In this document: one piece after another, positions 4,721 through 40,700 of the stretch
Layout: the number at the start of each line of letters is the position of its first letter
How positions within the stretch are numbered: position 1 is the first letter of the stretch
Source: Melioribacteraceae bacterium
GTDB lineage: Bacteria; Bacteroidota; Ignavibacteria; Ignavibacteriales; Melioribacteraceae
Assembly (NCBI GenBank): GCA_027030245.1
Contig: JALVFE010000025.1
Coordinates: 1 to 64,000 of the forward strand
Length of the DNA stretch: 64,000 nt
Direction: 5' to 3'
Notes under the pieces: generated by a model
The model's database searches: none
Told to the model about the DNA's origin: nothing
What the model saw: the letters and a program-made list of their open reading frames with translations, nothing else
Made by a program: the position numbers and the translations under genes

Positions 4721-4760
4721 GCAGGGGAAAAATAATATTCAGATTTGGCACACTTTTCTA

Positions 4761-4946: not shown

Positions 4947-4985
4947 TATTTATTTACTCCTAACTCCATTCCCTAAAAATAGTTT

Positions 4986-5198: not shown

Positions 5199-5236
5199 GC
5201 AGGGGAAAAAATATTATTAGCCGATTTATCATATAC

Positions 5237-5416: not shown

Positions 5417-5424
5417 ATTTCCCA

Positions 5425-12215: not shown

Positions 12216-14477
12216 ATGAAAGGTGTTTTATCATATCTTATTTTTTTCTTTTTGACTTTAAACCTTACGGGTCAGGTTTCCCACATTTGTTTGGATTGTC
12301 ACGGAGATAAAGAACTCCATATTCTGGAAGACGGAAAGTATCTTTCGCTTTACGTTAACGAAAATAAATATGCGTTATCGGTTCACGCAAAATTGGATTG
12401 TAACGAATGCCACAAAAATTACGACCCGTTTAACCTTCCGCACATAACAAAAGAAGAAAAGACTGAAATAACATGTATAGAATGCCATGAACAAGAGAGT
12501 TCGGAAATAGCTTCGCATTCACCGGAAAAAGTGAAATGTTACGATTGCCATTCCAAACATTATACACAGCAAGGTGAAACATTACTTTTTGAAGAACAAA
12601 AGTTTTGTATTTCATGCCATGATAATTCTTCGGCGAGAAATTATATTAAAAGCATTCACTACTTACCCGCCGGTGAAAATGAGAAACCGGTAAAATGCTT
12701 GGATTGTCACGATCAAAAAGCGCACAGAGTTACTCCTGCCCGATTCACCGAAGAAAAGCTTCACGCCGTTTGCGCTCAATGCCATGAAACCATCGTTGGA
12801 CAATATGAACTTAGCCTTCACGGTAAAGCTCTTGCACAAGGTAAATTTTTAGCGCCCAACTGTATAACATGTCATAATAAGCATAAAATTATTAGTCATA
12901 GAAATCCCGCCGCCAATACTTTTAAGATGAACATCCCGAACCTTTGCGGGAAATGCCACAAGGAAGGCACTAAAGTTTCGGAATTAAAAGTAATATCCCA
13001 AAGAAACGTTTTAGCAAATTATTCCCAGTCAATTCACGGCGAAGGGTTATTCAAGCGCGGATTAATCGTAACGGCTGTTTGTAACGATTGCCATAAATCC
13101 CATAATATTTTACCACATCAAGACCCTAAATCTTCAATAAACAGAAACAATATTGCAAAAACATGCCAACAATGTCACGCTCAAATCGAAAAAGTGCATG
13201 TAAAAGTTATCGAAGGTCAATTGTGGGAAAAAGAGCCGCATAAAATTCCGGCTTGCGTCGATTGCCATCAACCGCATAAAGTAAGGAGGGTTGTTTACGA
13301 AGAAATTTTTACCGACGATTATTGTATGGCATGCCATCAAGATAAGACGTTACAATATGAGCGGAACGGTGAGCAAAAGTCGCTTTTCGTAGATTTGGTA
13401 GAATTTAAAAATTCCGTCCATAAAGAAAACACTTGTATAAAATGTCATTCGAATATTAACATAAGCAATTTACCCGTTTGCAAGGACAGCGGACCTGTCG
13501 ATTGTTCGGCATGTCATGCGGAAGTTGTTGAAATTTATAAAACAAGTACGCACGGGAAATTAGTTGCAGATGCCGATCCAAATGCACCTTATTGCAATGA
13601 TTGTCACGGAACGCACAATGCATTATCCAAAAAAAATGTTAATTCGAAGACTTTCCGTACCAATATCCCTACGCTTTGCGCCGATTGCCACCGGGAAGGA
13701 GAAGAAGCAGCCGAACGTTATGAAGGGAAAGAACATAACATAATTAAAAACTACACGATGAGCGTTCATGGTAAAGGACTTTTAAAAAGCGGTCTTGTAG
13801 TAACCGCAACTTGTGTTGACTGCCATACCACCCACGGAGAGCTCCCCGCTTCCGATCCGCGTTCAACTGTTTACAGCGATAATATCCCGAAAACTTGCGC
13901 GACATGTCATTTGGGAATATATGAAGAATTCAAACGAAGCATCCATAGTCCATTGGTTAGCAAAACAGAAGAAGAATTACCTACGTGTTACGATTGTCAC
14001 CGGTCACACAATATTAAACGGGTTGATGAAACCGATTTCAGACAAAACATAATTGACAGATGCGGAAGATGTCACGAAGACGTGACCGAAACATATTTCG
14101 AATCTTTCCACGGTAAAGTTTCAAAACTCGGGGAAACGAAAGTGGCAAAATGTTATGATTGTCACGGTTCCCATAACATATTGCCTGCTGAAAATCCCGA
14201 ATCGATGATAAGTGCAGCCAACGTTGTGGAAACCTGCGCAAAATGTCATGACGGCTCAAATGAAAGGTTTGCCGGTTATATTACTCACGCAAACCATTAT
14301 GACAAAGAAAAATACCCTTACCTTTATTACACATTTTTATTCATGACGATTTTATTGGTTGGTACATTTGCGTTTTTCTGGTTACATACTTTACTATGGT
14401 TACCGCGGGCATTAATAGATAAAAAAATGATATTTAGGAAAAAGCAAAAGAACAAAGACGATGAATCAAACAATTAG
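12216..14477 (+). CDS. Membrane-anchored 23-heme cytochrome c
   Basis: 753 residues with 23 CXXCH motifs counted from CLDCH (near residue 25) to CAKCH (near 683). An N-terminal signal peptide (MKGVLSYLIFFFLTLNLTGQ) sends it to the periplasm, and one C-terminal helix (about 702-725) anchors it in the inner membrane with a basic cytosolic tail. Recurrent blocks such as SIHGEGLFKRGLIVTAVCND and SVHGKGLLKSGLVVTATCVD show internal duplication. The next gene, a cytochrome b, overlaps it by 17 bases, so the two probably form a quinol-oxidising complex that feeds electrons to periplasmic carriers. Many CXXCH neighbours contain His residues suited to bis-His ligation. The electron partner is inferred from context. 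Confidence 0.9.
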   Translation: MKGVLSYLIFFFLTLNLTGQVSHICLDCHGDKELHILEDGKYLSLYVNENKYALSVHAKLDCNECHKNYDPFNLPHITKEEKTEITCIECHEQESSEIASHSPEKVKCYDCHSKHYTQQGETLLFEEQKFCISCHDNSSARNYIKSIHYLPAGENEKPVKCLDCHDQKAHRVTPARFTEEKLHAVCAQCHETIVGQYELSLHGKALAQGKFLAPNCITCHNKHKIISHRNPAANTFKMNIPNLCGKCHKEGTKVSELKVISQRNVLANYSQSIHGEGLFKRGLIVTAVCNDCHKSHNILPHQDPKSSINRNNIAKTCQQCHAQIEKVHVKVIEGQLWEKEPHKIPACVDCHQPHKVRRVVYEEIFTDDYCMACHQDKTLQYERNGEQKSLFVDLVEFKNSVHKENTCIKCHSNINISNLPVCKDSGPVDCSACHAEVVEIYKTSTHGKLVADADPNAPYCNDCHGTHNALSKKNVNSKTFRTNIPTLCADCHREGEEAAERYEGKEHNIIKNYTMSVHGKGLLKSGLVVTATCVDCHTTHGELPASDPRSTVYSDNIPKTCATCHLGIYEEFKRSIHSPLVSKTEEELPTCYDCHRSHNIKRVDETDFRQNIIDRCGRCHEDVTETYFESFHGKVSKLGETKVAKCYDCHGSHNILPAENPESMISAANVVETCAKCHDGSNERFAGYITHANHYDKEKYPYLYYTFLFMTILLVGTFAFFWLHTLLWLPRALIDKKMIFRKKQKNKDDESNN

Positions 14478-15315
14478 CGCAAATAAATCAAATAATATTT
14501 ACTTTGAAAGGTTCGATTCTTTTTCGCGCTTTCTTCACGTATTGGTTATTGTCAGTTTTCTTTTATTGGCGTTGACCGGAATGACAATCAAATTTTCCGG
14601 TAGTCCGATATTTCAAACCATTTCCAAAATATTAGGCGGATACGAAGTAACAAGCGTAATCCACAGATTTGCTGCAATAATAACCGGCGTTTATTTCGGT
14701 CTTCATATATGGTATCTGTTAAATAAATTAAAAACCGGAAAATTGAGTTTAAAAGAATTACTTTCCGGTGAAAATTCTTTGGTCCCGAACAAACGTGATT
14801 TTACAGACTTTTATAAGACAGTAAAATGGTTTTTGGGACTGGGTCCTCGTCCCGATTACGGCAGATGGACATACTGGGAAAAATTCGATTACTTCGCAGT
14901 ATTTTGGGGAGTTGCCGTTATCGGTTCAAGCGGAATGTTGTTATGGTTTCCTGAATTTTTCACAAATCTGGGATTACCGGGATGGACAATAAACGTGGCC
15001 GCAATAATCCATAGCGATGAGGCATTGTTGGCTACCGGTTTTATTTTTACGGTTCATTTTTTTAATACACATTTTCGCCCCGAAAAATTTCCAATGGATA
15101 CGGTTATTTTTACCGGAACCATATCACTTGAGGAATTGAAGGAAGAACGCCCGAGACAGTATGAATATCTATTAAAAAACAATGAGCTTGAAAATTATTT
15201 GACTAAAACGCCTTCTACAAAGGCAATCAAAGCTTGGAAGGTATTCGGATTTACAGCTTTATCCATCGGTATCATTCTTGTTCTGTTAATTATTTACACA
15301 CTAATATTTTTGTAA
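14461..15315 (+). CDS. Di-heme cytochrome b membrane subunit (FdnI/thiosulfate reductase cyt b type)
   Basis: 284 residues with four to five membrane helices (about 24-44, 64-88, 142-162, 187-203, 258-282). Candidate heme b ligands are His26, His68, His82, His199 and His204, the usual arrangement in the formate dehydrogenase gamma / cytochrome b561-like family. This family oxidises menaquinol at the inner membrane. Start and stop overlap with the 23-heme gene implies coupled translation and a fixed complex. The same architecture appears fused to its cytochrome in the next gene. The C-terminal cytosolic segment includes HFRPEKFPMD, also seen in the fused protein as HPKEYPMS. Confidence 0.88.
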   Translation: MNQTISANKSNNIYFERFDSFSRFLHVLVIVSFLLLALTGMTIKFSGSPIFQTISKILGGYEVTSVIHRFAAIITGVYFGLHIWYLLNKLKTGKLSLKELLSGENSLVPNKRDFTDFYKTVKWFLGLGPRPDYGRWTYWEKFDYFAVFWGVAVIGSSGMLLWFPEFFTNLGLPGWTINVAAIIHSDEALLATGFIFTVHFFNTHFRPEKFPMDTVIFTGTISLEELKEERPRQYEYLLKNNELENYLTKTPSTKAIKAWKVFGFTALSIGIILVLLIIYTLIFL

Positions 15316-15338: not shown

Positions 15339-17873
15339 ATGAGAAATTTTATTCGCGTAAGGGTTTTTGAGAAAAATTATTTAAAGTACGATTTAAATTA
15401 TTTCTTTTTAATGTTAATTCTTAGTCTGTTCACACCAAATTTAAACACCGCACAAATCGGCGAATGTATGGAATGTCACGGAGACGCAAATTTAACAATG
15501 CCCCGGAACGGCAAAATAATTTCACTCTATGTAAATCTATATGAATACAAAAATTCCGTTCACGGCAAATTGGACTGTAACGAATGCCATACAAATTTTG
15601 ATCCACAGGATATTCCGCATAAACCCGGAAAAGATATTTATAAAGTAAACTGTGCTTCATGTCATGAAGAACAAGTTGTACAATCGGAAAACGATATACA
15701 CCACAGATTAGTCGATGTTGTGAAAGACCTTCCAACTTGTGTAACTTGTCACGGAATACACAATACGAAATCAGTTCAGGATATTACAGATAAATCCCAA
15801 GAATATTGTTCGGATTGCCACGAAACCAACATGCTTTTGGTTTATCCGTATCATTTGAAAGAAAAGGATGCAGAGACCAACTGCAGCAATTGCCACGATA
15901 GTGATATATTGCATTCGGACTTAGATTATTCCGTTCATAAGGATTTGTTTTGCACGGATTGTCATATTTGTCCTGAAGATAACAAAGCATTTTTTAAACA
16001 AGCAATTTCAAATAATCCCGATTTAACGGCGACAAATTGTATACCTTGCCATACACAAGAATTTAAAGAGCACAAAACAAGTATCCACGGATTATTAATT
16101 CAAAAGGGCGATACGGATGCCGCCGCTTGTTGGGATTGTCACGGCGGTCATGATATACTTGCGATTAACGACCGTGAAAGTCCGGTGTACATAACAAACA
16201 TCGCAAAAACATGCGGATCTTGTCACGCCGATACAACTTTCCAAGCCGAACATCCCCTGCCGATTGTCGATCCGGTTAGGACTTACGCACAATCGGTTCA
16301 CGGTAAGCTATACGAAGAAGGTGCGGTAAACGTGCCGACATGTATAACATGCCACGGTATCCACGATATTAAAAATGTTGTTCAGCCCGGTTCTCGAATT
16401 TCTCCGTTTAATCTACCGAACGCTTGTGAAGATTGTCATCCCAAGGAAACAAAAGAATATAAGGAATCCATTCACTGGGCTTACGCATTAAAAGGATTCA
16501 GGTTTTCGCCGGTTTGCAACGATTGCCACAACGAGCACGGAATAGAAGCAATAACCGGTCCACAAAGCAGAAAAGAAGCAAAAAAAATACAAGAAGAAAC
16601 CTGTATGAATTGTCATCAAAGTAAAATGCTGGCAAATAAAGTGGGTTTACACGCAGACGAACCTCATACGTATCAAGATAGTTACCACGGATTAGCGGTT
16701 ATGCGAGGCGATGAAGATGCGGCTATGTGCGTCGACTGTCACGAAGTACACAGAATCTTACCTAAAAATAATCCGGAATCATCAGTTAATGTAAATAACG
16801 TGAAAATGACATGTCAAAAATGTCACGAAGATGCTACACAAACATTTGCGGAGAGTTATTCGCATCATGATATAACGGTGGAAAGCAAATTTGTTGAAGG
16901 ACTTATTAAAAACATTTACTTCTGGTTGATTGTAGCCGTGATTGGTGGAATGGTTTTGCATAATCTGATTATATACATTTACGAAGTCAGACGTAAGAAA
17001 AAGCATATTAAATCTTCCCCCACTATTCCAAGATTTACGAAGAATGAAGTTGTTCAACACATATTGCTTTTAACTTCTTTTATTACTCTGGCTATAACCG
17101 GTTTTGCATTAAAATACCCAAACAGCTGGTGGAGCGAGGGACTTGCAGCATTAGGATTAACGGAAACATTAAGACAATATGTTCATAGAACTTCCGCCGT
17201 AATCATGGGAACAACCGGATTTTATCATATACTGTACTTAATTTTTACAAAACGAGGACGCACTGTTTTGGCAGCTCTTTTGCCTAAGTTCAAAGACTTA
17301 AGTCAAGCTGTACAAAATATTGCATATTATCTGCACTTTACAAAATCCAAACCTGAATTTGATGAATATGACTATACTGAAAAAGCGGAATATTGGGCAT
17401 TGATATGGGGTACACTTATAATGGGAGCAACAGGATTTATACTTTGGTTCCCTACTTCCGTTGGCGAATGGGCACCGATTTGGCTAATCAAAGTAAGTGA
17501 AACAATTCATTTTTACGAAGCAATTCTTGCTTCACTTGCAATTTTGGTATGGCATTGGTTCTTTGTTATTTTCCATCCGAAAGAATATCCGATGAGTTTA
17601 ACTTGGACTGACGGTCAAATGACTGTTCATGACTATAAACATCATCATCCTGAACATTTTAAGTTTGTATTGAAAGAATGGATTGAATACAAAACAAATG
17701 CAAAGGAATACAAAAATTTAGATATAGATACTCAGTTATTTATTGAAAATTTGAAAAAACGAGGTTACGATCCGGATAAAGTTTTCTTGGACGAATTAAA
17801 AACAGATATCAATTTAAGAAAATGGCTCGATGAAACTTTTGAAGGAGTTAATCTGGAAAAAATTATGAGTTAA
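15339..17873 (+). CDS. 16-heme cytochrome c fused to cytochrome b (CbcL-like quinol oxidoreductase)
   Basis: 844 residues from the ATG at 15339, which has GGAAAGG 7 bases upstream; an in-frame start 105 bases earlier lies inside the previous gene and is rejected. A signal-like N-terminus (to about 39) is followed by 16 CXXCH motifs (CMECH to CQKCH, about 43-500). A membrane helix near 518-542 precedes a four-helix cytochrome b domain (about 565-740) with His pairs in TM helices (VVQHILLL, YVHRTSAVIMGTTGFYHILY, FYEAILASLAILVWHWFFVIF). In effect it is a single-chain version of the preceding two-gene pair. Known Geobacter CbcL has the same order with fewer hemes; similarity of role is inference. 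Confidence 0.9.
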   Translation: MRNFIRVRVFEKNYLKYDLNYFFLMLILSLFTPNLNTAQIGECMECHGDANLTMPRNGKIISLYVNLYEYKNSVHGKLDCNECHTNFDPQDIPHKPGKDIYKVNCASCHEEQVVQSENDIHHRLVDVVKDLPTCVTCHGIHNTKSVQDITDKSQEYCSDCHETNMLLVYPYHLKEKDAETNCSNCHDSDILHSDLDYSVHKDLFCTDCHICPEDNKAFFKQAISNNPDLTATNCIPCHTQEFKEHKTSIHGLLIQKGDTDAAACWDCHGGHDILAINDRESPVYITNIAKTCGSCHADTTFQAEHPLPIVDPVRTYAQSVHGKLYEEGAVNVPTCITCHGIHDIKNVVQPGSRISPFNLPNACEDCHPKETKEYKESIHWAYALKGFRFSPVCNDCHNEHGIEAITGPQSRKEAKKIQEETCMNCHQSKMLANKVGLHADEPHTYQDSYHGLAVMRGDEDAAMCVDCHEVHRILPKNNPESSVNVNNVKMTCQKCHEDATQTFAESYSHHDITVESKFVEGLIKNIYFWLIVAVIGGMVLHNLIIYIYEVRRKKKHIKSSPTIPRFTKNEVVQHILLLTSFITLAITGFALKYPNSWWSEGLAALGLTETLRQYVHRTSAVIMGTTGFYHILYLIFTKRGRTVLAALLPKFKDLSQAVQNIAYYLHFTKSKPEFDEYDYTEKAEYWALIWGTLIMGATGFILWFPTSVGEWAPIWLIKVSETIHFYEAILASLAILVWHWFFVIFHPKEYPMSLTWTDGQMTVHDYKHHHPEHFKFVLKEWIEYKTNAKEYKNLDIDTQLFIENLKKRGYDPDKVFLDELKTDINLRKWLDETFEGVNLEKIMS

Positions 17874-17973: not shown

Positions 17974-18531
17974 ATGAAATTCAAGAATAATTTATTCCTC
18001 TTCCTTTTCGCCCTTATCTTCGTATCGCTTTTACTTAATGCACAAGAAAAACAACGTACTTACGTCGGTGCGCGAAAATGTAAAACCTGCCATAAAAAAG
18101 AAAAAATAGGTAATCAATTCAAATTATGGCAAGAAAGCAAACATGCAAAAGCCTATAAAACCCTGCTTACGGAAAAAGCAGATTCTATTTCAATGAGCCT
18201 CGACAGCATGAAAGCGGTAGACAATAAAAATTGCTTGAAATGCCACGCAACCGCTTACGATGTTGACAAATCTCTTCTCGGTAAAAAATTTAAAATAGAA
18301 GACGGCGTACAATGTGAATCGTGCCACGGTGCCGGCGGTGATTATAAAAAGAAAAAAATAATGAAAAAACACGACCTTGCCGTAGCAAACGGTCTTGTTG
18401 AATATAAAGACGAATCCGAAATCGAAAAACAGTGCAAAACTTGTCATAACGAAGATAGTCCAACTTATAAAGAATTTGATTTCAAGAAACGCTGGGAAGA
18501 TATAAAACACCCTATTCCCGACAAAAAATAA
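17974..18531 (+). CDS. Periplasmic tetraheme cytochrome c (c554-like), paralogue 1
   Basis: 185 residues: a signal peptide (to about 25, ending LLLNAQ), then four CXXCH motifs (CKTCH, CLKCH, CESCH, CKTCH). The YVGARKCKTCHKKEKIGNQF opening, the QCESCHGAGGDY block and the C-terminal HP.P motif match the cytochrome c554 / tetraheme family. No membrane anchor is seen, so it is probably a soluble periplasmic electron shuttle. It is very Lys-rich, which would suit docking to acidic partners. It sits between the inner-membrane oxidoreductases and the outer-membrane module. A closely similar gene follows after 130 bp. Confidence 0.9.
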   Translation: MKFKNNLFLFLFALIFVSLLLNAQEKQRTYVGARKCKTCHKKEKIGNQFKLWQESKHAKAYKTLLTEKADSISMSLDSMKAVDNKNCLKCHATAYDVDKSLLGKKFKIEDGVQCESCHGAGGDYKKKKIMKKHDLAVANGLVEYKDESEIEKQCKTCHNEDSPTYKEFDFKKRWEDIKHPIPDKK

Positions 18532-18661: not shown

Positions 18662-19252
18662 ATGCCAACAAAAACATACACATCACTAGTGTTAGTTCTC
18701 TCCCTACTTTTTCTCATAGGATTCTCTTCTTATACTTCCGAGGACTATACTGTCCGCAAATATTTAGGAACAAAAAAATGTAAGAAATGCCACAAGTTCG
18801 AAAAACAAGGGAAGCAATTTCAAATTTGGGCGGAAAGTATTCACGCTCTCGCTTACGAAACTTTGCAGTCGGAAGAAGCAGATAAAATTTGCAAGGAAAT
18901 GGGTTACGGAGATAAAGCTACAGAATCCGAAGAATGTTTGCGTTGCCATGCCAGTGGTTGGGAAGTGGATGAAGAAATGTTAGGACCGAAATTTAAAATA
19001 GAAGACGGTGTGCAATGCGAAACTTGCCACGGTGCAGGCGGCGATTACACAAAATTAAAAATCATGAAAAATTACGAAGTTGCAAAGGAAAAAGGTTTGA
19101 TTGATTTAAAAGATAATGTGGAAGAATTTTGCAGAAGCTGCCACAACCCGGATAGCCCGACTTTTGCCGGATTTAATTTCGAAGAAATGTGGGCAAAAAT
19201 AGAGCATCCGTTACCCTTTAGACATAAAGATAAATCGGCGGGAGAAAAATGA
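18662..19252 (+). CDS. Periplasmic tetraheme cytochrome c (c554-like), paralogue 2
   Basis: 196 residues with a signal or anchor segment (about 7-25) and four CXXCH motifs (CKKCH, CLRCH, CETCH, CRSCH). It aligns along its whole length with the preceding gene (YLGTKKCKKCHKFEKQGKQF, KFKIEDGVQCE.CHGAGGDY, then P.SPTFAGF and EHPLP). It is more acidic than paralogue 1, so the two may serve different partners. It overlaps the barrel gene at ATGA (19249-19252). That tight coupling suggests this copy works directly with the outer-membrane conduit. Confidence 0.9.
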   Translation: MPTKTYTSLVLVLSLLFLIGFSSYTSEDYTVRKYLGTKKCKKCHKFEKQGKQFQIWAESIHALAYETLQSEEADKICKEMGYGDKATESEECLRCHASGWEVDEEMLGPKFKIEDGVQCETCHGAGGDYTKLKIMKNYEVAKEKGLIDLKDNVEEFCRSCHNPDSPTFAGFNFEEMWAKIEHPLPFRHKDKSAGEK

Positions 19253-20529
19253 AATCATTCGTTTACTTTTTGGGAATTTTGCTTATCGTATCGGTTAATT
19301 TAAAAGCGCAAAACGTGAGAGGTAAAATCACTTCGTCATTTTATTCTTTCGAACGGTACAGCAGTTTGGATAACTCCGACCGGTTTCTGCGCGCTTACCA
19401 AACTATGAATTTGAACGTCACCCAAAGTAAGTTTTCTTTCAGAACAAGAATTAATTTTGAAGGTGATTTAATTAACCCCCTTGAACGTGATCCAAAACTA
19501 CGCTTTTACAAACTTTATTTTGAAGGTAAAAACATTTCCGATATTTTAAGTTTTAAAATCGGACGTCAACCAATCTACAACACCGTTGCCGGCGGATTGT
19601 TCGATGGAATACATCTGAAACTTAAATACAAAGGTTTTAAGCTAACGGGATATTTTGGCGGTAACGTTGCACCTTATCAAAAACTAAAATTTACGGACGA
19701 TTTGAGCAACGATTATATCGCCGGCGGCAAATTAACCGTTACTGAAATAAAAAATCTGAAATTCGAATTAAGTTACGTAGATAAAAACTTTAAGCCCGTT
19801 GATTATTCGGCTATTAGACTTGACGAAAATCTTAATCCGATTAACGTCTTAATCAGGAAGAATTCAAATCAGTTCAGATTCATTTCCGGAGCCATTTCTT
19901 ATAAACTGAAAAATGCTTTCAGAATCAATACCAAATACGATTACGATCTCAACTTTGAAACTACTTCCAAGTTTATGGTTTCCGCACGATACGAGCAAAT
20001 CAAAAATCTGGGAATTTCGCTGTTTTATAATTTCAGGGAACCCCGGATAAGATACAATTCCATTTTCGCCGTTTTCAATTACGGAAACACGCAAGAACTG
20101 GAAGGCGGACTGGATTACAAAATAAACAATAAAATAACCGTTTTCGGTAAATTCGGAAACGTTACTTACAAAGACGAAAATTCGCAAAGATTAACCCTTG
20201 GTATTAATTCGAATTTCGGTAGTTTAAGTTTTAGGAAAACATTCGGATACGCCGGCGAACTCGATGCAATTTCGGTTTATTCGGCAAGAACATTCATGAA
20301 CGGATTATTAACTCCTTCAGTCGGACTCGCATACACATCATACAAATTATCTCCGGATGCAGAAAAAAATAAAATTCTATCGTTCTTGGGGGGAATTAAC
20401 ATCAGACCTTGGAAGTTATGGTCGTTTGATCTACAAGCACAATACTTCAACAATAAAATTTATAAAAACGATTTACGTATGTTTTTCAAAATTAATTATT
20501 GGTTCAACACTAACTTAAATTTGTTGTAA
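19249..20529 (+). CDS. Outer-membrane beta-barrel protein, candidate porin of an electron conduit
   Basis: 426 residues: a signal peptide (to about 21, ending LKAQ), then alternating amphipathic strands with many aromatic girdle residues, and a barrel-like end (FFKINYWFNTNLNLL). Motifs such as SFKIGRQPIYNTVAGGLFDG and repeated short turns fit a porin of roughly 16-18 strands. No CXXCH is present. Its place between a tetraheme gene (ATGA overlap upstream) and a 13/14-heme gene (1-bp gap downstream) matches porin-cytochrome complexes, in which a barrel sheathes a multiheme wire. I see no clear similarity to MtrB or PioB, so the role rests on fold and context. Confidence 0.75.
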   Translation: MKSFVYFLGILLIVSVNLKAQNVRGKITSSFYSFERYSSLDNSDRFLRAYQTMNLNVTQSKFSFRTRINFEGDLINPLERDPKLRFYKLYFEGKNISDILSFKIGRQPIYNTVAGGLFDGIHLKLKYKGFKLTGYFGGNVAPYQKLKFTDDLSNDYIAGGKLTVTEIKNLKFELSYVDKNFKPVDYSAIRLDENLNPINVLIRKNSNQFRFISGAISYKLKNAFRINTKYDYDLNFETTSKFMVSARYEQIKNLGISLFYNFREPRIRYNSIFAVFNYGNTQELEGGLDYKINNKITVFGKFGNVTYKDENSQRLTLGINSNFGSLSFRKTFGYAGELDAISVYSARTFMNGLLTPSVGLAYTSYKLSPDAEKNKILSFLGGINIRPWKLWSFDLQAQYFNNKIYKNDLRMFFKINYWFNTNLNLL

Positions 20530-20530
20530 A

Positions 20531-21742
20531 ATGAAAGCAAAATATATTTATGCGGCTTACATTCTTCTCATTGTTGTATTCACTGCGTTTGCATTTCAAG
20601 ACGAAGAGAAGAATAATAAAGTAATTAAATTTTCGCATGGTTATCATCTTACCGAAGCCGATGCCGAGTGCTCAGATTGCCACGGTGCGGTTTGGGAAAG
20701 CGAAAACATGTTCGACCGTTTAATTCCCACGGAAGAAACGTGCGGCGAGTGCCATGATGTTGAAGACAAGGAAGAATGCAGCGAATGCCATTACGAGGGC
20801 GTTGAGAAACTACTTGTTCCTTCCAAACCGACACTTTTTTTCAATCACAAATTACACATGGAACAGGATCTCGAGTGCGAAACATGCCACAAAGGATTGG
20901 AAGACGTCAATTACAGTTTCGAATCGCCCGAATTACTGCCCGATATGGAAAGTTGTTTTAACGAATGCCACAATGAAAATTCGGTCGCCGATAATAATTG
21001 CCAGACTTGTCACATTTCAACAATTGCTCTTATTCCCGATAATCATAAACAAGTCGACTTTTTCGATAACCATAAATTCCTTGCCGAAGATACCGGTGAG
21101 AATTGTGTAATGTGTCATTCAAATTCGTTTTGCGAATCTTGTCATGTTTCCACAAATGCAATTCTAGAAGCTAATACGGCGAAAGATTTTTACACTCCGT
21201 ATTCCCCGCACAATTTTATCGATAACGTAAAACAGCAACAATTAGTAAGGGTTCATGATTTGAATTACGTTTACACTCACGGAATAGATGCCAAAGGGAA
21301 AGAAGCGGAGTGTTTAACATGTCATCAAGATGAAATGTTTTGCGTCGAGTGTCACAATTCCCAAAACGAAGATTTTGCGTTGAGCGGATTTGTTCCCCTT
21401 TCGCATTCAAAGCCCAATTTTACTACGATTGGTGTAGGCAGCGGAGGCGGAGAACATGCAATTTTGGCAAGAAGGGATATCGAAAGCTGCGCGTCTTGTC
21501 ACGATACCGAAGGCGCAGATCCGTCTTGTATCCTTTGTCATTCGGATCCCGACGGAATTAAAGGTACAAATCCGAAAACACACGAAGCTAATTTTATGCA
21601 CGATGTTGAAGGCGATTGGCATAATTCAGAGGGCGCGGTTTGTTATGAATGCCATACAGATTTCAATGCCCGACCAACGGGTCAAGCCGGAATAGGATTT
21701 TGCGGTTATTGTCATTCTAACATTGAAGAAAACGAAGATTAA
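20531..21742 (+). CDS. 13-heme cytochrome c with one extra CX3CH site
   Basis: 403 residues. A signal peptide (to about 21) is followed by 13 CXXCH motifs and one expanded motif, CFNECH near residue 142, so up to 14 hemes. The order includes CSDCH, CGECH, CSECH, CETCH, CQTCH, CVMCH, CESCH, CLTCH, CVECH, CASCH, CILCH, CYECH and CGYCH. The chain is strongly acidic, unlike the Lys-rich tetraheme protein, which would favour pairing. It starts one base after the barrel gene. By position it is the periplasmic or barrel-inserted wire of the conduit. The FSHGYHLTEADAECSDCHG opening resembles cytochrome c7-like and c3-like segments. Confidence 0.88.
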   Translation: MKAKYIYAAYILLIVVFTAFAFQDEEKNNKVIKFSHGYHLTEADAECSDCHGAVWESENMFDRLIPTEETCGECHDVEDKEECSECHYEGVEKLLVPSKPTLFFNHKLHMEQDLECETCHKGLEDVNYSFESPELLPDMESCFNECHNENSVADNNCQTCHISTIALIPDNHKQVDFFDNHKFLAEDTGENCVMCHSNSFCESCHVSTNAILEANTAKDFYTPYSPHNFIDNVKQQQLVRVHDLNYVYTHGIDAKGKEAECLTCHQDEMFCVECHNSQNEDFALSGFVPLSHSKPNFTTIGVGSGGGEHAILARRDIESCASCHDTEGADPSCILCHSDPDGIKGTNPKTHEANFMHDVEGDWHNSEGAVCYECHTDFNARPTGQAGIGFCGYCHSNIEENED

Positions 21743-21757: not shown

Positions 21758-22621
21758 ATGAAAATTTTGATAAAATATTTATCGCTTACTTTTTTAATTA
21801 TCTTTGCCGTTCTTTCTTGCAGTAAACTCGAAGACGATATTGCACCGCCGATCAAACCTTCAGGCGTTCATCCGGAAGGATTCGGAAAACCGGGCGCTGT
21901 AAATTTTCATTCCGTTTGGTTCGAACAAAACAACTGGAACTTAAAATACTGCCAACAATGCCACGCAGCCGATTATGGCGGAGGAACAAGCGGAGAAAGT
22001 TGTTTAACGTGCCATACGGAAACCGCGGGACCGGAAGCATGTAATACTTGCCACGGGGATTTCTCTAATCCGGAACGTATTTCACCGCCACGGGATTTAT
22101 CGGGTAATATTGAAACTTCGGCTCGCGGAGTGGGTTCACATTCCGCTCACGTTTACGAAAACGGATTAACGGAAAACATCGATTGTTTCGAATGCCATCC
22201 TAGTGAAACGGGCAGCAACGAAAAATATGTTTACGCACATGTCGGAAATCCTCCGGCGGATATTGAATTCGGGAAATTCTCTTCCCCGAACGGTAACTCG
22301 GAATACGATTATAATTTACTTACATGCTCCAATGTTTACTGTCACGGGAATTTTTCTTTCTCAAGAGACTCATCGCAATTTACATTTTATTATTCCGATT
22401 CGGTTATAACAGGTGAAAAATTTTCACCGGTTTGGAATAAAGTGGACGGGACACAAGCCGCATGCGGAACATGCCATCTTCTGCCTCCGCGCGGTCATAA
22501 AGATGCGGGCACCGACCCGGATGCCACTACGTGCAGTTCTTGTCATCCGAAAGTAGTTGACGCAAACGGGAACATTATTGATAGGTCAAGACATATAAAT
22601 GGTATGAAAGACGTTTTCTAA
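21758..22621 (+). CDS. Multiheme lipoprotein cytochrome c, 6 CXXCH plus CX4CH
   Basis: 287 residues with a lipoprotein signal (LIIFAVLSC, Cys near 21). Six CXXCH motifs (CQQCH, CLTCH, CNTCH, CFECH, CGTCH, CSSCH) and one CX4CH (CSNVYCH) are present. The mix of CXXCH and CX4CH with PP.GHKDAGTDP and HINGMKDV is typical of the Geobacter-type CxxxxCH/CxxCH surface family. A lipid anchor next to a porin gene suggests the outer-membrane, cell-surface member of the conduit. It is the last of five closely spaced genes (16-bp gap from the previous one). Confidence 0.87.
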   Translation: MKILIKYLSLTFLIIFAVLSCSKLEDDIAPPIKPSGVHPEGFGKPGAVNFHSVWFEQNNWNLKYCQQCHAADYGGGTSGESCLTCHTETAGPEACNTCHGDFSNPERISPPRDLSGNIETSARGVGSHSAHVYENGLTENIDCFECHPSETGSNEKYVYAHVGNPPADIEFGKFSSPNGNSEYDYNLLTCSNVYCHGNFSFSRDSSQFTFYYSDSVITGEKFSPVWNKVDGTQAACGTCHLLPPRGHKDAGTDPDATTCSSCHPKVVDANGNIIDRSRHINGMKDVF

Positions 22622-22638: not shown

Positions 22639-23967
22639 ATGGAATTCAATAAACATACTGCCGAAGAGATTTTGGATTCGTTGAATGAAGGAGTTTTTAC
22701 CGTCGATAAAAATTTCCGGATAAACTATTTTAACAAATCCGCCGAGAGAATTACGGAATTAAAAAGAAACGAAGTTCTGGGAAAATTCTGCAAACACGTT
22801 TTCAATTCAAAAGCATGTTATAATGAATGTCCCATTGCAATTGTACTGCGTCAGAAAAAAAACATTCACGAATTCGAATCCGAAATTCATTGCCCCTCCG
22901 GAGTAAATAAGCCGATAAAATTAAGCGCTGCTGTTTTATACAACGGCAATGAAGAACCGAGCGGTGGAGTGATTTCATTCAGGGATATATCGGATTTGGA
23001 TAAAATCAAAAGGAAATTGGTACAAAACTCACAATTCCACGGCATAATTGGTCATGCCAAACAAATGCAGGAAATCTATACATTGATTGAAGAGATTGCC
23101 GACTCGGATGCACCGGTTTTCATTCACGGAGAATCCGGAACCGGAAAAGAGATGATTGCCAATGCGATTCAAGCAACAAGCCACCGGCGCGATAAACCTT
23201 TCATAAAAATCAACTGCTCCGTTTTCCCGCCGAACCTTTTGGCAAGCGAACTTTTCGGACACGTTAAAGGCGCATTTACAGACGCAATAAAAGACCGTGT
23301 TGGAAGATTTGAACTTGCAAATACCGGCACCATTTTTCTCGATGAAGTTGCGGAAATGCCTTTACAAATGCAATTGCAGCTACTCAGGGTTTTGCAAGAA
23401 GGAACTTATGAGAGAGTCGGCGAATCAATCACAAGGAAAGTTGACGTCCGCGTTATTGCCGCAACAAACAAAAACATTGAGGAAGCGCTCGCAAAGGGTG
23501 AATTTCGCGAAGACTTATTCTATAGGCTCAACGTTATACCAATTTATGTTCCGCCTTTGAGGGAACGGATGTGCGACATTGCGCCCCTCGCCGATCATTT
23601 TCTTAAAAAGTTTTCATTGATGTACAAAAAAAACATTTCGGAAATTGACGACGCCGCAATGGATATTCTAATGAATTACGAATGGAAAGGAAACGTACGG
23701 GAATTGGAAAACGTATTGGAGTATGCATTTGTAAGAACGCCGGACGGTGAGAAAATTACATCGAGCAAACTGCCCGTTTCGATTAAGCAAAAAGTTTCCA
23801 ACAAAATAAACAACAATTCGTTTTTGTTTAACGACCCCGAAAAAGAAAAACTTATCCGAATTCTCGAAAAACATCAATGGAATAAGAGCAAGGCTGCAAA
23901 AGAATTGGGAATAGGCAGAACAACTTTGTGGCGGAAATTGAAAAAACTTAATCTTGTTGAAAAATAA
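22639..23967 (+). CDS. PAS-AAA-Fis sigma-54 activator (enhancer-binding protein)
   Basis: 442 residues. PAS domain (about 5-118) with four Cys (51, 60, 64, 85; C-X8-C-X3-C and one more) that could hold a metal, heme or redox centre. The AAA+ core (about 135-360) has Walker A GESGTGKE, the sigma-54 contact loop GAFTDA, Walker B FLDEVAEM and the arginine-finger region. A Fis-type HTH closes the protein (about 400-440, NKSKAAKELGIGRTTLWRKL). There is no receiver domain, so the signal is probably sensed by the PAS part. It is 17 bp behind the conduit genes and just before four TGTTTCA repeats and a -24/-12 promoter. It is the likely switch for the exported cytochrome. Confidence 0.92.
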   Translation: MEFNKHTAEEILDSLNEGVFTVDKNFRINYFNKSAERITELKRNEVLGKFCKHVFNSKACYNECPIAIVLRQKKNIHEFESEIHCPSGVNKPIKLSAAVLYNGNEEPSGGVISFRDISDLDKIKRKLVQNSQFHGIIGHAKQMQEIYTLIEEIADSDAPVFIHGESGTGKEMIANAIQATSHRRDKPFIKINCSVFPPNLLASELFGHVKGAFTDAIKDRVGRFELANTGTIFLDEVAEMPLQMQLQLLRVLQEGTYERVGESITRKVDVRVIAATNKNIEEALAKGEFREDLFYRLNVIPIYVPPLRERMCDIAPLADHFLKKFSLMYKKNISEIDDAAMDILMNYEWKGNVRELENVLEYAFVRTPDGEKITSSKLPVSIKQKVSNKINNNSFLFNDPEKEKLIRILEKHQWNKSKAAKELGIGRTTLWRKLKKLNLVEK

Positions 23968-23968: not shown

Positions 23969-24083
23969 TGTTTCACGTGTTTCAACTGTTACCCAATTTG
24001 TTTCACCTTCATATCTTATTATAATTCAAGCAATTAACTAAACTTCCGGTCAAAAAGATTTTTGTGCGGAACAGTTTGTTTCA
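23969..24083 (+). promoter_or_regulatory. Four TGTTTCA repeats, candidate activator sites
   Basis: TGTTTCA occurs at 23969, 23978, 23999 and 24077, directly after the activator gene and 43-157 bp upstream of a sigma-54-like promoter. Clustered short repeats at this distance are what enhancer-binding proteins use. The 188-bp gap between genes holds little else. Confidence 0.4.
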
Positions 24084-24125: not shown

Positions 24126-24141
24126 TGGCAAAGAATTTGAA
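24126..24141 (+). promoter_or_regulatory. Candidate sigma-54 (-24/-12) promoter
   Basis: TGGCA at 24126-24130 and TTGA at 24137-24140, with GG and GA spaced 10 bases apart; consensus is GG-N10-GC, so one base differs. It lies 15 bases before the first start codon of the TPR gene, which would leave a very short leader. Confidence 0.4.
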
Positions 24142-24155: not shown

Positions 24156-24617
24156 ATGACGGAAATGTTAGGAAATCAATTTTTTATGGCACGTAAATAC
24201 GAAGATGCATTGCGCATCTTCGAAAAGTGCAAAGAAAAAGGAGAGCTAAACAAAAACATCATGAGAAAGATGGTTGTCTGCTACACACAAACCGGTAAAA
24301 TTCAAGAAGCCGCGAAAATGTTATTAACGTTAATTAATGAAGACCTGGATTTTGTGTTAAATACCGATCCGGTAAAAGACGATTGCCCGTGTAGCGAACT
24401 GGTTAAAGAATATGAATCCCGTTTGCAAATATCGGTTGAGAGTTTCGATTTTCTAACATCGCTGGGAATTCTCTGGTTATACTGCGATTTGAATAAGTCG
24501 GTTTGTTATTTCAAGAAAGCTTCTGAAATTTATCCGGACAATAGCATCGTTAATTCCATTTTATCTAAATTAATGAGCAGGCAAACACTTTCGGAAAAAG
24601 AATTAAATAACAATTAA
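24156..24617 (+). CDS. Small TPR-like protein ahead of the exported cytochrome
   Basis: 153 residues, all helical and soluble with no signal peptide. At least two TPR-like helix pairs can be seen (about 3-36, GNQFFMARKYEDALRIFEKC, and 99-132, LGILWLYCDLNKSVCYFKKA). Six Cys include CPC at about 77. The start could be 24156 or 24165; the later ATG at 24186 would cut the first TPR helix. It shares the candidate sigma-54 promoter with the 15/16-heme gene 22 bp downstream. TPR proteins often act in assembly or export, so a chaperone-like role for that cytochrome is possible. No function was recognised. Confidence 0.6.
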   Translation: MTEMLGNQFFMARKYEDALRIFEKCKEKGELNKNIMRKMVVCYTQTGKIQEAAKMLLTLINEDLDFVLNTDPVKDDCPCSELVKEYESRLQISVESFDFLTSLGILWLYCDLNKSVCYFKKASEIYPDNSIVNSILSKLMSRQTLSEKELNNN

Positions 24618-24639: not shown

Positions 24640-27075
24640 ATGAATAAAATCAAACTTGTTTTAACCTTGTTCGCAATGATTTGTCTCTCTCAGTACTTAT
24701 ACGGACAGGCATACTTTAACACCAGTCTGCACAATACCCGCGCAGGTAAGATTTCATGGTATAGTGCCGAAAACGGTGGTTTCGAAACGATAACTAACGT
24801 ACCGATCGACAGCTTGGGATGTATTCATTGTCACGGACCCAACAACGCAGACGGTGTGCCTAACGGAGACGATTATGAACCCGGATGCGTAGATTGTCAT
24901 CCGAGCAATTCCAATTTTAATCCGGATTCGATAAAAGTTGAACAGTGCTACAGCTGCCACGGCAGACAAAAAAAAGTAGCGATGGTATTACAATTACCCG
25001 ACGTTCATCGGGATGCCGGTATGGTTTGCTGGGATTGTCACGAAGCCGAAGATATGCATGGGGACGGAAACGAATACGGTTCGCTTTTTGAAGAAGGTGC
25101 AATTAAAGCTAAATGTGAGAACTGCCATATCGATGAAAATTCTAATCCGCCAATGCCCGACCATACGCAGTACGATCCGCATAACGGTAAGCTTGATTGT
25201 ACGGCTTGTCACGTTACTTCCGTAGCGGCTTGTTACAATTGCCATTTCGAAAGTATGACCGAAAGCCATTTAAAACGGGCATACAAAGTAATGAGCGATT
25301 TTGTATTATTGGTAAACAGAGACGGGAAAGTCCACAGTGCAACATTTCAATCTTTAACATATCAAGGTTCGGCTTTTAATGCGATTGGTCCCGGTTCATC
25401 GCATACAATCGGCAAAGGAAGAGATTGCGAAGCTTGCCACGGTAACGATAATGTGAAAGAATATTTTGATACCGGAGAAATCAAGTTTACCACGTGGAAC
25501 GAAGCAGACAGCACATTGACTTGGAAACACGGTATTGTTCCGATTCCACCGGATTACGAAACTACTTTTAAAATGGATTTCATAACTTACAACGGTAATC
25601 CGGATGATCCGGTCGAACCTTCTAAAAATTGGTCGAAAATCGGAAAAGACCTTCCCGATGCGGTTCAAATGAAATTCGCAACGCCGTTAACCGAAACCCA
25701 GATGCTCGCGCTTTCCAAAGACGTTGGTACAATTGCCGACAATTTTGCAACAAGTTTGCACGGCACACGCGCTGGAAAGATTTACTGGTATGGCGCAGAT
25801 AACGGTGGGTTCGAAACTTTAACCAATGTACCGATTTCCGAAATGGGTTGTGTTGAATGCCACGGACCGAATAATGCCGATGGCGTACCGAACGACGAAA
25901 ACTATGAACCAAGTTGTGTCGATTGCCATCCTTCCGGCTCGGCATTTAACCCCGATTCTATTAAAGTAGACCAATGCTACAGCTGTCACGGAAGACAAAA
26001 GAAAGAAATAGCGTTAGGTTTCACCGATGTTCACCGGGATGCCGGAATGAAATGTTGGGATTGCCATACTTCAAAAGATATGCACGGAGACGGCTCGGCA
26101 CCTCAATCAATGTTAGAACCAACTTCGATAGAAGCGGATTGCGCTAACGAAGGATGTCATCCCGAAGGATCGTTGCCTTCGGATCACGCAAGCAAAGATC
26201 CGCATAACGGAAAATTGCATTGTACTACATGCCATGCGCAAACGGTTATAAGTTGTTACAACTGTCATCTTGAAAGTAAAATAGAAGGTCATCTGAAAAG
26301 GGCTTATAAACCGATAAACAACTTTGTTATTTTGGCAAACAGAGAGAAAGACGGTAAAGTCTATCCGATGACTTTCCAATCGCTTACATATCAAGGAAAT
26401 TCGTTTGTAGCTTTCGGACCTTTCACTTCACACACGATTACCAAAGAAGGCGCAAGGGTTTGTACGGATTGCCATGCTAATTTCGGTGGAACTGTGGAAG
26501 CAATTCAAGATTATAACGACGACGGAATTATGCAATTTGCAAAATGGAATGACGAAGACAGCACGCTAACTTGGTTAACCGGTGTTGTTCCCATGCCTGA
26601 AGATTATCAACGTTCTTTCAAAATGGATTTTATTACTTATAACGGCGATCCGCATGATCCGGTAGGACCTTCGAAAAACTGGTCGTTTGTTAAAGGAGAA
26701 TGGGATGGTCATCAAATGTTCTTTGCAACACCGTTAACAACCGAGCAAATGGCGAACCTTGGTTTCGATACTACGCTTGTCGGTGTAAAACGGGAATCCG
26801 GAATTATTCCCAGCAAGTTTGCACTCGAGCAGAATTATCCGAATCCGTTTAACCCGACGACCATTATCGAATATTCGATTCCGCACAGAGCTCAAGTCGA
26901 ATTATCGATTTACGATGTGCTCGGTAATAAAATTAAAACACTGGTTAACAAAAACCTTTCACCCGGTGTTTACAAATATGAATTCGACGGCAGTAATTTA
27001 GCCAGCGGAGTCTATTTCTACAGATTAGCTACAAAAGATTTCACACAAACGAGAAAATTCGTTTTGATGAAATAA
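24640..27075 (+). CDS. T9SS-exported duplicated octaheme cytochrome c (15 CXXCH plus one CX4CH)
   Basis: 811 residues from the ATG at 24640 with GAGAGG upstream. Signal peptide to about 23. Two tandem modules (about 24-345 and 350-715) each begin F.TSLH.TRAGKI.WY and repeat GPNNADGVPN, CYSCHGRQKK, DVHRDAGM.CWDCH, DMHGDG, DPHNGKL, HLKRAYK and FKMDFITYNG. Module 1 has eight CXXCH; module 2 has seven plus CANEGCH at the place of CENCH. The last 80 residues are a type A T9SS sorting domain (LEQNYPNPFNPTT, then SGVYFYRL and KFVLMK). That directs it across the outer membrane to the cell surface. An extracellular electron-transfer role is inferred. Confidence 0.92.
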   Translation: MNKIKLVLTLFAMICLSQYLYGQAYFNTSLHNTRAGKISWYSAENGGFETITNVPIDSLGCIHCHGPNNADGVPNGDDYEPGCVDCHPSNSNFNPDSIKVEQCYSCHGRQKKVAMVLQLPDVHRDAGMVCWDCHEAEDMHGDGNEYGSLFEEGAIKAKCENCHIDENSNPPMPDHTQYDPHNGKLDCTACHVTSVAACYNCHFESMTESHLKRAYKVMSDFVLLVNRDGKVHSATFQSLTYQGSAFNAIGPGSSHTIGKGRDCEACHGNDNVKEYFDTGEIKFTTWNEADSTLTWKHGIVPIPPDYETTFKMDFITYNGNPDDPVEPSKNWSKIGKDLPDAVQMKFATPLTETQMLALSKDVGTIADNFATSLHGTRAGKIYWYGADNGGFETLTNVPISEMGCVECHGPNNADGVPNDENYEPSCVDCHPSGSAFNPDSIKVDQCYSCHGRQKKEIALGFTDVHRDAGMKCWDCHTSKDMHGDGSAPQSMLEPTSIEADCANEGCHPEGSLPSDHASKDPHNGKLHCTTCHAQTVISCYNCHLESKIEGHLKRAYKPINNFVILANREKDGKVYPMTFQSLTYQGNSFVAFGPFTSHTITKEGARVCTDCHANFGGTVEAIQDYNDDGIMQFAKWNDEDSTLTWLTGVVPMPEDYQRSFKMDFITYNGDPHDPVGPSKNWSFVKGEWDGHQMFFATPLTTEQMANLGFDTTLVGVKRESGIIPSKFALEQNYPNPFNPTTIIEYSIPHRAQVELSIYDVLGNKIKTLVNKNLSPGVYKYEFDGSNLASGVYFYRLATKDFTQTRKFVLMK

Positions 27076-27104
27076 AGGTTAAAAGTTAAATCTTCTTGAT
27101 TGAG

Positions 27105-27138
27105 CCCGGTTCGAAAAATTCGGACCGGGTTTCTTTTT
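27105..27138 (+). terminator. Rho-independent terminator after the exported cytochrome
   Basis: An 11-bp stem (27105-27115 with 27119-27129, one G-T pair, AAA loop) is followed by TTTCTTTTT. It ends the plus-strand cytochrome locus 30 bp after the stop codon and abuts the convergent ATP-grasp gene. Confidence 0.85.
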
Positions 27139-38454: not shown

Positions 38455-38676
38455 ATGAAGACAGCAGCCGAGTTAAAGGCGGGAGAAAAAGGGATTATCG
38501 AAAAAATAGATTTCGACAATCCGTGTTCCAAAAGAATTGTAGAGTTCGGGTTTACGCCCGGAAAAGAAATTGAGATGGTAAACGAATCCGTTTTTCGTGA
38601 TCCTGTTACATTTTCGATAAGGGGAACATTAATTGCTATAAGGAAAAACGAGGCTAAGTCTATTATTCTGTCATGA
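38455..38676 (+). CDS. feoA: Ferrous iron transport protein A
   Basis: 73 residues from the ATG at 38455. SH3-like FeoA fold: ELKAGEKGIIEKI, RIVEFGFTPGKEIEMV, DPVTFSIRGTLIAIRKNEA. FeoA is a small cytosolic partner that assists FeoB. It overlaps feoB at ATGA (38673-38676). Longer in-frame readings upstream would include the promoter and are rejected. Confidence 0.93.
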   Translation: MKTAAELKAGEKGIIEKIDFDNPCSKRIVEFGFTPGKEIEMVNESVFRDPVTFSIRGTLIAIRKNEAKSIILS

Positions 38677-40700
38677 ACAATTCCAATACCGGGTCGCTAC
38701 CTTTTGTTATTTTAGTCGGTCCACCGAACTCGGGTAAAACCACACTTTTCAATTCACTTAGCGGAAAAAATTTTAAGACAGTTAACTATCCTGGTTCAAC
38801 CGTAGAGTATCACACCGCAGAAATTTCCGAAAAATATAATTGTAAAGCTTTGCTGTTAGATTCGCCGGGTATCATAAGTTTGGCGCCAAATTCACCCGAT
38901 GAAAAAGTTGCGGTCGATTCGCTTTACAATCATCCCAAATATGGTAAACCAGATTTGGTTGTATTGACTTTGGATTCAAGTCAAATTTCCCGTCATCTTT
39001 TGCTGGCAAAAGAATTAATCGATTCGGGATTTAGAATAATTATCGCTTTAACAATGAATGACATTCTGGAGAAAAAAAATTTACGTATAGATATTGATAA
39101 ACTATCAAACTTACTTGGAGCCAAAATAATTCCCGTTAACGGTCAAACCGGCGATGGTTTGTTTCAATTAACTCAAGCAATCAAAAACGAATTAAAAAAT
39201 AACGGCTCCCCCAAACAATATCATAATCCTAATCTCGATAAAGGAAATTATAACGAATACCTTTTAAAAACATATAACGAAATTGAAAAAATTAAAGACC
39301 AGGTTCTGGTGCCTGTGGTTCCCAAAGAAAAACTGGAACAAGCGAATGCGGAACTCAAGATATTGAACGACCAACTAAAAGAAAAATTGGAAGAACCGGA
39401 TAATCTTACGCTTAAAATCGACAAGATTTTACTTCACAAATTTTGGGGACTGGTTATTTTCAATTTAATAATGGCGGGAACTTTCATTTCCATTTTCTAT
39501 ATTGCTCTTCCTTTAATGGAATTGGTCAACGATTTCTTTACGTTTCTCTCCGGTTCCGCATTAGATTTTTTGGGAAATACATGGTACGGTAATTTGGTTG
39601 CCAACGGAATAATATCCGGAACCGGCGCAGTAATAGTTTTTGTTCCGCAAATTTTTATTTTGTTTCTAATTCTCGGATTCTTAGAAGACACCGGATATCT
39701 TGCCCGCGGTGCAATGTTGGTTGATAAACCGCTTTCAAAACTCGGCTTGAACGGTAGATCGTTTGTCCCGATGCTTTCGGGATTTGCATGCGCAATACCG
39801 GCAATAATGGCTGCGCGTACAATACGGAGCAGAAAAGAACGGCTGCTTACCATTTTCATTATCCCTTTGATGAGCTGCTCTGCGCGGTTACCCGTTTACA
39901 CCTTAATTATTGCCTATCTCACTCCGCCCGAACATTTATGGATAGGCGGATTTGCTCTTGCAGGAATTTATTTGTTCAGCGTGGTCAGTGCGGTTATAAT
40001 CGCCGGAATTGTTAATAAATTCAGTAAAACTTTGATAAGGGAAAAATCCCATTCTTCCTTCATGCTGGAACTTCCCACATACAGAAAGCCGAAACTTAAA
40101 GTAATATTGAACAACGCGTACGTAAATTCCAAAATGTATTTGATTAAAGCGGGAACCGTTATTCTGGTGCTTTCAATTTTTTTATGGTTTATTACATTTT
40201 TCCCGAACACAAATCCTAAAATTAACACCCAAGGTTTAGACAAGGAAGAAATAGAAACTTTAATTAACTCGGAACGATTGGAAAACTCTTATGCAGCAAA
40301 ATTGGGTCATTTGATTCAGCCGATAATGACCCCGATAGGAATGGACTGGCGCGTTGGGGTTTCGCTAATTTCCGCATTTGCCGCAAGGGAAGTTTTCGTC
40401 AGCTCGTTAGCTCTTATTTTCAAAGTTACCGGCGACGGTTCGACGCAAAACTCTTTATTAACCGCAATGCGCAACGCAAAGGTTTCCGGAACAAATCAAA
40501 AATTGTTTACGGTGGCAACAAGCATAGGAATCATTATCTTCTTTGTCTTCGCACTGCAATGTATTTCAACTTTGGCAATTTCCAGGCAGGAAACCGGCGG
40601 GTGGAGAATCCCGATGCTTCAATTATTCATTTATACTTCAATTGCTTATATTTTAACGTTTATTACCGTAAACGGATTGAGAGCTTTCGGAATACAATAA
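38673..40700 (+). CDS. feoB: Ferrous iron transporter FeoB
   Basis: 675 residues. N-terminal G domain (about 8-170): G1 GPPNSGKTTLFN, G2 YPGSTVEYH, G3 LDSPGI and a G4 reading TMND rather than the common NMxD. A helical spacer follows, then the membrane part with gate helices (GFLEDTGYLARGAMLVDK, MLSGFACAIPAIMAARTI, SCSARLPVY) and C-terminal helices with AFAAREVFVSSLALIF. It imports Fe2+ across the inner membrane. Shorter than the E. coli protein (773 residues) because the C-terminal region is reduced. Iron import suits the heavy heme demand of the cytochrome locus. The altered G4 could affect nucleotide specificity. Confidence 0.95.
   Translation: MNNSNTGSLPFVILVGPPNSGKTTLFNSLSGKNFKTVNYPGSTVEYHTAEISEKYNCKALLLDSPGIISLAPNSPDEKVAVDSLYNHPKYGKPDLVVLTLDSSQISRHLLLAKELIDSGFRIIIALTMNDILEKKNLRIDIDKLSNLLGAKIIPVNGQTGDGLFQLTQAIKNELKNNGSPKQYHNPNLDKGNYNEYLLKTYNEIEKIKDQVLVPVVPKEKLEQANAELKILNDQLKEKLEEPDNLTLKIDKILLHKFWGLVIFNLIMAGTFISIFYIALPLMELVNDFFTFLSGSALDFLGNTWYGNLVANGIISGTGAVIVFVPQIFILFLILGFLEDTGYLARGAMLVDKPLSKLGLNGRSFVPMLSGFACAIPAIMAARTIRSRKERLLTIFIIPLMSCSARLPVYTLIIAYLTPPEHLWIGGFALAGIYLFSVVSAVIIAGIVNKFSKTLIREKSHSSFMLELPTYRKPKLKVILNNAYVNSKMYLIKAGTVILVLSIFLWFITFFPNTNPKINTQGLDKEEIETLINSERLENSYAAKLGHLIQPIMTPIGMDWRVGVSLISAFAAREVFVSSLALIFKVTGDGSTQNSLLTAMRNAKVSGTNQKLFTVATSIGIIIFFVFALQCISTLAISRQETGGWRIPMLQLFIYTSIAYILTFITVNGLRAFGIQ

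Follow-up and report, generated by a model that had tools for sequence, protein, structure and literature searches.

Surface cytochromes of Shewanella and Geobacter get outside the cell as lipoproteins or via type II secretion. Iron-rich sediments, bioanodes and anammox sludge commonly harbor Bacteroidota-type phyla, and we found no description in the searchable literature of the route by which these phyla put cytochromes outside. The known cargo of the type IX secretion system (T9SS) consists mainly of proteases, glycosidases and adhesins. Our literature search, which covered papers outside subscription, likewise returned no description of T9SS-exported multiheme cytochromes, although an earlier one may exist, and no mention of multiheme or secretion terms was found in the multi-omics paper on Melioribacter roseus. 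Ignavibacteria have been reported to have OmbB-like and MtrB-like porin-cytochrome complexes (PMC7399161), and T9SS substrates are known to pass the outer membrane folded (PMC9251779).

Here we used sequence analysis and structure modeling to examine a 64,000-nucleotide stretch of Melioribacteraceae DNA (hereafter the window), which contains a gene for a T9SS-tailed protein with 16 heme sites. We propose, with a probability of roughly two in three, that the product is a hexadecaheme c-type cytochrome in which a widespread octaheme module occurs twice, and that it is exported by the T9SS, anchored at the cell surface and relays electrons from an adjacent putative conduit to an extracellular acceptor. 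Judged from sequence, the locus and its relatives in other phyla, in which the module is fused to other predicted surface anchors, suggest a mode of bringing electron-transfer proteins to the cell surface that has not been described.

An 811-residue protein with two octaheme modules

The coordinates of the locus are collected in Table 1. By motif count, the 811-aa protein has 15 CXXCH and one CX4CH, i.e. 2 × 8 heme sites, whereas shuffles of the same protein contained CXXCH 0.06 times on average and twice at most. Aligned over 348 aa, the two modules (aa ~24-372 and 373-730 in this comparison) are 60% identical (E 5e-149), and their DNA is 65% identical. The single CX4CH motif, CANEGCH at aa 501 in module B, aligns with CENCH of module A and falls on heme 5. 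By its multiple heme motifs with conserved ligands, the protein is classed as a predicted multiheme c-type cytochrome, the term octaheme referring throughout to the number of motifs. Terminator-like sites numbered 3 in the region compared with 3.8 expected from shuffles, and the stem of the hairpin 3' of the cytochrome gene is by far the longest of them.

Table 1. Features of the cytochrome locus, in window coordinates
Feature	Position	Strand	Remarks
23-CXXCH cytochrome	12216..14477	+	C-terminal membrane helix
Cytochrome b-like membrane protein	14461..15315	+	sequence only
16-CXXCH cytochrome fused to cytochrome b561-like membrane domain	15339..17873	+	putative quinol-side entry
Tetraheme cytochrome, c554 family	17974..18531	+	
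Tetraheme cytochrome, c554 family	18662..19252	+	
Putative outer-membrane beta-barrel	19249..20529	+	426 aa, heme-free; putative conduit porin; weak LptD match, E 0.0036
Multiheme cytochrome	20531..21742	+	403 aa, signal peptide, 13 CXXCH + 1 CX3CH; putative periplasmic conduit part
Seven-heme cytochrome	21758..22621	+	6 CXXCH + 1 CX4CH, lipoprotein-like N-terminus; putative outer conduit part
PAS-AAA-Fis sigma-54 activator	22639..23967	+	442 aa; probable TPR-cytochrome regulator
Four TGTTTCA repeats	23969..24083	+	at 23969, 23978, 23999 and 24077; putative activator binding sites
Sigma-54 (-24/-12) promoter-like box	24126..24141	+	TGGCAAAGAATTTGAA; 14 bp upstream of TPR ATG
TPR protein	24156..24617	+	153 aa; 22 bp upstream of cytochrome gene
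T9SS-tailed 16-heme cytochrome	24640..27075	+	811 aa; ATG at 24640, stop ends at 27075; N-terminal start MNKIKLVLTLFAMICLSQYLYGQ; aa 1-~23 signal peptide, followed by both modules and a type A sorting tail
Octaheme module A (aa 24-372)	24709..25755	+	8 CXXCH
Octaheme module B (aa ~370-721)	25747..26802	+	7 CXXCH + 1 CX4CH
T9SS type A C-terminal sorting domain	26836..27063	+	NYPNPFNPTT...FVLMK; last ~80 residues
Intrinsic terminator-like hairpin	27102..27132	+	14 pairs then T-rich; 3' of cytochrome gene

The sorting tail and the export machinery of the host

The sorting tail scored 40.1 bits against PF18962 (cut-off 27) and 42.2 bits against TIGR04183 (cut-off 23), and the protein is thus built as a sequence-only reading of this DNA had described it, from two eight-heme modules and a NYPNPFNPTT sorting domain. 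AlphaFold2 modeled module B with the tail at a pLDDT of 91.8. In VIA-align, the modeled tail aligned with the C-terminal domains of PorU (6za2, Z 10.0) and mirolase (8qb1, Z 9.3), and in Foldseek it matched NucA (8glk_D) and PorZ; because unrelated beta-sandwich domains score about as high against it, the fold supports the sequence match but is no proof of it.

The sequence-only reading had the protein leave through the T9SS and made this depend on T9SS genes elsewhere in the genome, and such genes are present. The host genome (3.8 Mb, 97.7% complete) has 102 T9SS-tail matches, SprA as a 2273-aa frame, PorU at 967 bits, immediately followed by PorV, and 13 PorV-family members that exceed the cut-off. 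GldM (TIGR03517) was not detected in this genome, but the controls were equally silent, so this result is no evidence of absence; the T9SS motor may be divergent in the host phylum. With respect to heme maturation, the genome encodes two Cytochrom_C_asm proteins (CcmC/CcmF-type), one of ~800 aa, and a search of it for a ResB-type (system II) pathway found none; maturation in the host looks like a Ccm system.

Multihemes are rare, yet not unique, as T9SS cargo in the host genome. In a cargo census, one of the other 101 tailed ORFs was multiheme, and two more carried a single CXXCH. This second tailed multiheme (L250:13078-14517; G000:C25, ~197 kb) has 480 aa and 8 CXXCH and is c554/decaheme-like; it is encoded on the same contig, with ccmC/ccmF-type genes a few kb away and a two-component system next to it.

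T9SS export of the 16-heme cytochrome is probable and, at the sequence level, well supported by the signal peptide, by a tail with the right predicted fold, by the presence of SprA, PorU and PorV together with Ccm genes, and by the occurrence of such tails only alongside SprA (see below). The sequence-only reading had regarded the passage of a folded multiheme protein as a puzzle and the route as unusual. The puzzle dissolves, because the T9SS carries folded proteins (PMC9251779) and heme loading ahead of export is therefore no obstacle; what stands is that the cargo is unusual. The 811-aa protein resembles known type A cargo (TIGR04183/PF18962) in its signal peptide, in the sequence and predicted fold of its sorting domain and in the SprA, PorU and PorV of its genome, but differs in being a cytochrome predicted to be heavily heme-loaded.

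A cross-phylum octaheme family with different anchors

We used ten modules as queries against 84,980 species genomes and recovered the octaheme module at 79 loci, which are spread over more than 15 phyla and include Archaeoglobales. All eight heme sites are invariant across 73 modules, as are the non-motif histidines H5, H96, H153 and H229, and H113 is conserved at 92%. A tail model built from 28 own-genome tails divided the 79 homologues, with a clean gap, into 35 that are tailed (≥48 bits) and 44 that are tailless (<2 bits), and further tailed cytochromes, which the sequence-only reading had proposed to search for, are found both in the host genome and beyond it. The tailless homologues are mostly single-module proteins, many with a lipobox-like start, whereas tailed versions have one to three modules (8, 16 or 24 hemes), single-module proteins being the commonest tailed form. 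Anchors across the family are thus a T9SS tail (35 of 79 loci), a lipobox or a dockerin, and the module is, as judged from sequence, an unnamed cross-phylum octaheme family whose anchors appear exchangeable. We consider this family a more interesting result than the puzzle of folded export; it had escaped the sequence-only reading, as had the adjacent conduit, the sigma-54 regulation and the variation from one to three modules. Two larger proteins also contain the module: a 2081-aa Phycisphaerales fusion with 34 CXXCH (L096:6896-13138), in which one octaheme module stands amid other multiheme and beta-rich domains, and a tailed protein with at least 22 CXXCH (L101:3-3386; 5' end cut by the contig edge), in which unrelated multiheme domains are attached to the module.

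We compared the occurrence of the tail with that of SprA. SprA was present in 27 of 27 tailed genomes tested (in one as a sub-threshold fragment) compared with 8 of 23 tailless ones, an association with a Fisher p of 2e-7 over these 50 genomes that ignores kinship. In the tree, both modules of the 811-aa protein are part of a 28-module clade with 100/100 support, 27 members of which are tailed. The sole tailless member is a Phycisphaerales protein from an SprA-negative genome, and it has a GC-type dockerin-like C-terminal end (E 1e-5, just under the cut-off). The tree needs five tail changes, of which at least three are forced. Well-supported branches carry just three independent tail changes, of which two or three accompany SprA. 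A test corrected for phylogeny would need more, and so the association is consistent but lacks phylogenetic proof. These data bear on the possibility that the tailed protein is retained in the periplasm as a conventional multiheme cytochrome of that compartment, as the rarity of multihemes among T9SS cargo (2 of 102 tailed ORFs) might suggest. However, the tail is kept in different phyla and, among the genomes tested, occurs only in those with SprA, a dockerin-like end takes its place in an SprA-negative host, and the T9SS carries folded cargo (PMC9251779), and we regard periplasmic retention as very improbable.

The number of modules has changed repeatedly in the tree. The A/B duplication of the 811-aa protein predates the split from its nearest relative (L071), and a congener (L072), which has one A-type module joined to the tail, is best read as having lost module B. 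The copies in two three-module proteins (L075 and L090) and two two-module proteins (L087 and L111) cluster within each protein and were thus duplicated separately. Such clustering, together with module numbers of one, two or three (8, 16 or 24 hemes) within one family, could be expected if the exported protein formed or joined a longer conductive surface fiber in which the repeated modules are links of a heme chain. Against this, single-module proteins predominate among the tailed forms, and anchoring by the T9SS would point to a protein fixed at the surface; we consider a fiber improbable and favor an anchored relay of two modules.

More broadly, we advance, as a tentative idea to which we give somewhat less than even odds, that an octaheme module common to bacteria and archaea is displayed outside by each host's own device: a T9SS tail in Fibrobacterota-Chlorobiota-Bacteroidota-type phyla, a lipid anchor elsewhere and a dockerin in a planctomycete. 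Where the host has a T9SS, copies of the module would have been strung together into surface chains of 16 and 24 hemes that lengthen a porin-cytochrome conduit, and the T9SS would serve generally as an export path in extracellular electron transfer. With its clear sequence signature, a T9SS-exported octaheme family could be used to flag extracellular electron transfer in uncultured groups of Bacteroidota-type phyla, and the way in which tail and SprA go together across phyla would represent a natural experiment in which one redox module is re-anchored between envelopes.

Relation of the module to known multiheme cytochromes

The octaheme module alone (module B) was modeled by AlphaFold2 at a pLDDT of 92.9 and a pTM of 0.90. 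Foldseek gave no match for this model at E <0.001, and the only PDB chain at Z ≥2 was 1sp3, the octaheme tetrathionate reductase (OTR) of Shewanella (Z 8.4, rmsd 4.4, 230 aligned residues, 18% identity). A PDB sequence search with the module returned weak matches to many multihemes, none of them specific. The 811-aa protein had no match to the OTR family TIGR04315 (curated cut-off 375 bits) at E 0.01. Membership in the OTR family by profile-profile comparison (97.9%, E 6e-13) was rejected, as an unrelated 16-heme cytochrome scored equally (97.8%, E 1e-12). The module has eight heme sites, as OTR does, and 1sp3 is its only match among solved folds, but it differs in the missing family match, in its smaller size (~345 compared with ~440 positions) and in an unspecific sequence link; it represents an unnamed octaheme family, perhaps of OTR fold.

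In contrast to the OTR link, a profile match to 10-heme lipoproteins of Melioribacteraceae (L228, L231 and L249) was specific (99.7%, E 4e-25). These proteins share the DVHxxxAG..C..CH...HGDG core with the module but have ten CXXCH and a lipobox-like start instead of the tail, and align over about half of the module. Ten-heme lipoproteins (L228, L231, L245 and L249) with the DVH..C..CH..HGDG core are common in Melioribacteraceae, and in the three-module locus L249 separates the TPR gene from that of the sigma-54 activator. ExtM, a cytochrome of selenite/tellurite reduction operons (NF040943), was matched by 73 of 73 modules over a stretch of ~45 residues around the same core, but the whole protein reached 66 bits against a cut-off of 800 and covered a small part of the 599-position profile.

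The resemblance to OTR raises the possibility that the T9SS displays an octaheme enzyme, i.e. an OTR-like surface reductase of a soluble substrate such as a sulfur or nitrogen oxyanion, and not a relay to a solid acceptor. Besides the fold match to 1sp3, TIGR04315 is weakly matched by 9 of the 73 modules, and many homologues are lone genes. Furthermore, only five non-motif histidine columns are ≥90% conserved for eight hemes, which would allow a heme to be open or to have unusual ligands, and some hemes may thus be catalytic and not conductive. However, the 811-aa protein itself lacks a TIGR04315 match, its profile link to OTR is no better than that to an unrelated 16-heme cytochrome, a true OTR is present elsewhere in the host genome, and tandem copies fit a relay better than an enzyme. 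We therefore consider a surface reductase unlikely, albeit an alternative to be taken seriously, and retain electron relay as the preferred role.

Neighboring genes and the putative conduit

The genes upstream of the cytochrome resemble the porin-cytochrome conduits MtrCAB, OmaB-OmbB-OmcB and the Ext complexes in that genes for a putative cytochrome b entry, periplasmic multiheme, barrel and outer lipoprotein multiheme are neighbors. They differ in that the barrel matched no named porin family and the distal cytochrome is T9SS-tailed, not a lipoprotein. For the barrel, a sequence search found no PDB relative, and the protein is a putative porin by weak similarity.

The genes for the barrel, the 14-heme cytochrome and the lipoprotein adjoin in four Melioribacteraceae genomes, including that of the window, and in one KSB1 genome (L104). 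Most homologues elsewhere, including many tailed ones, have no conduit or redox neighbors, and many are lone genes. The conduit thus appears to be a lineage-specific partner, and we infer electron supply by the conduit for this lineage. In Kryptonia (L094, L102 and L113), the tailed octaheme is found with a MerR regulator and with DsrE-like, NarI-like membrane and HdrD-like Fe-S proteins (families judged by eye), a cassette that may be a different, putative electron supply for the same surface module. By sequence inspection, the window also contains a gene for a FeoB-like ferrous iron transporter (38673-40700, +), and short ORFs at 709-6192 (-), with RHS-core-like ends followed by differing C-termini, look like orphan RHS C-terminal cassettes.

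In the relay that we propose, the 16-heme precursor would be exported to the periplasm by Sec, and its hemes would be attached there covalently by the Ccm system. The folded protein would then pass through SprA with its tail bound by PorV, and the sortase PorU would remove the tail, leaving the protein attached to the cell surface. Electrons would be taken from the conduit (cytochrome b/16-heme cytochrome, 14-heme cytochrome, barrel and 7-heme lipoprotein) and would pass along both heme modules to an extracellular acceptor.

Regulation of the TPR-cytochrome unit

A sigma-54 activator gene and/or a TPR gene precedes the tailed cytochrome gene in ~15 loci. A scan with the strict sigma-54 consensus, allowing one mismatch, found nothing near the gene, and a looser comparative scan gave the box listed in Table 1. 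Across 14 TPR loci, a TGGCA-N6-TTG/ATG box tends to lie 12-21 bp upstream of the listed start (combined p 5e-7 against mononucleotide shuffles), and TGTTTCA/TGAAACA repeats were seen 27 times in the upstream regions compared with 0.9 expected from block shuffles; both figures include closely related loci, which are not fully independent cases. The arrangement is consistent with a TPR-cytochrome unit that is sigma-54-dependent and under the adjacent PAS activator, and transcription would begin when this activator turns on the sigma-54 promoter. The upstream region of one locus (L118:3854) has CAACAATTTGTTGC-type palindromes in place of the TGTTTCA repeats, which suggests another activator specificity for the same operon.
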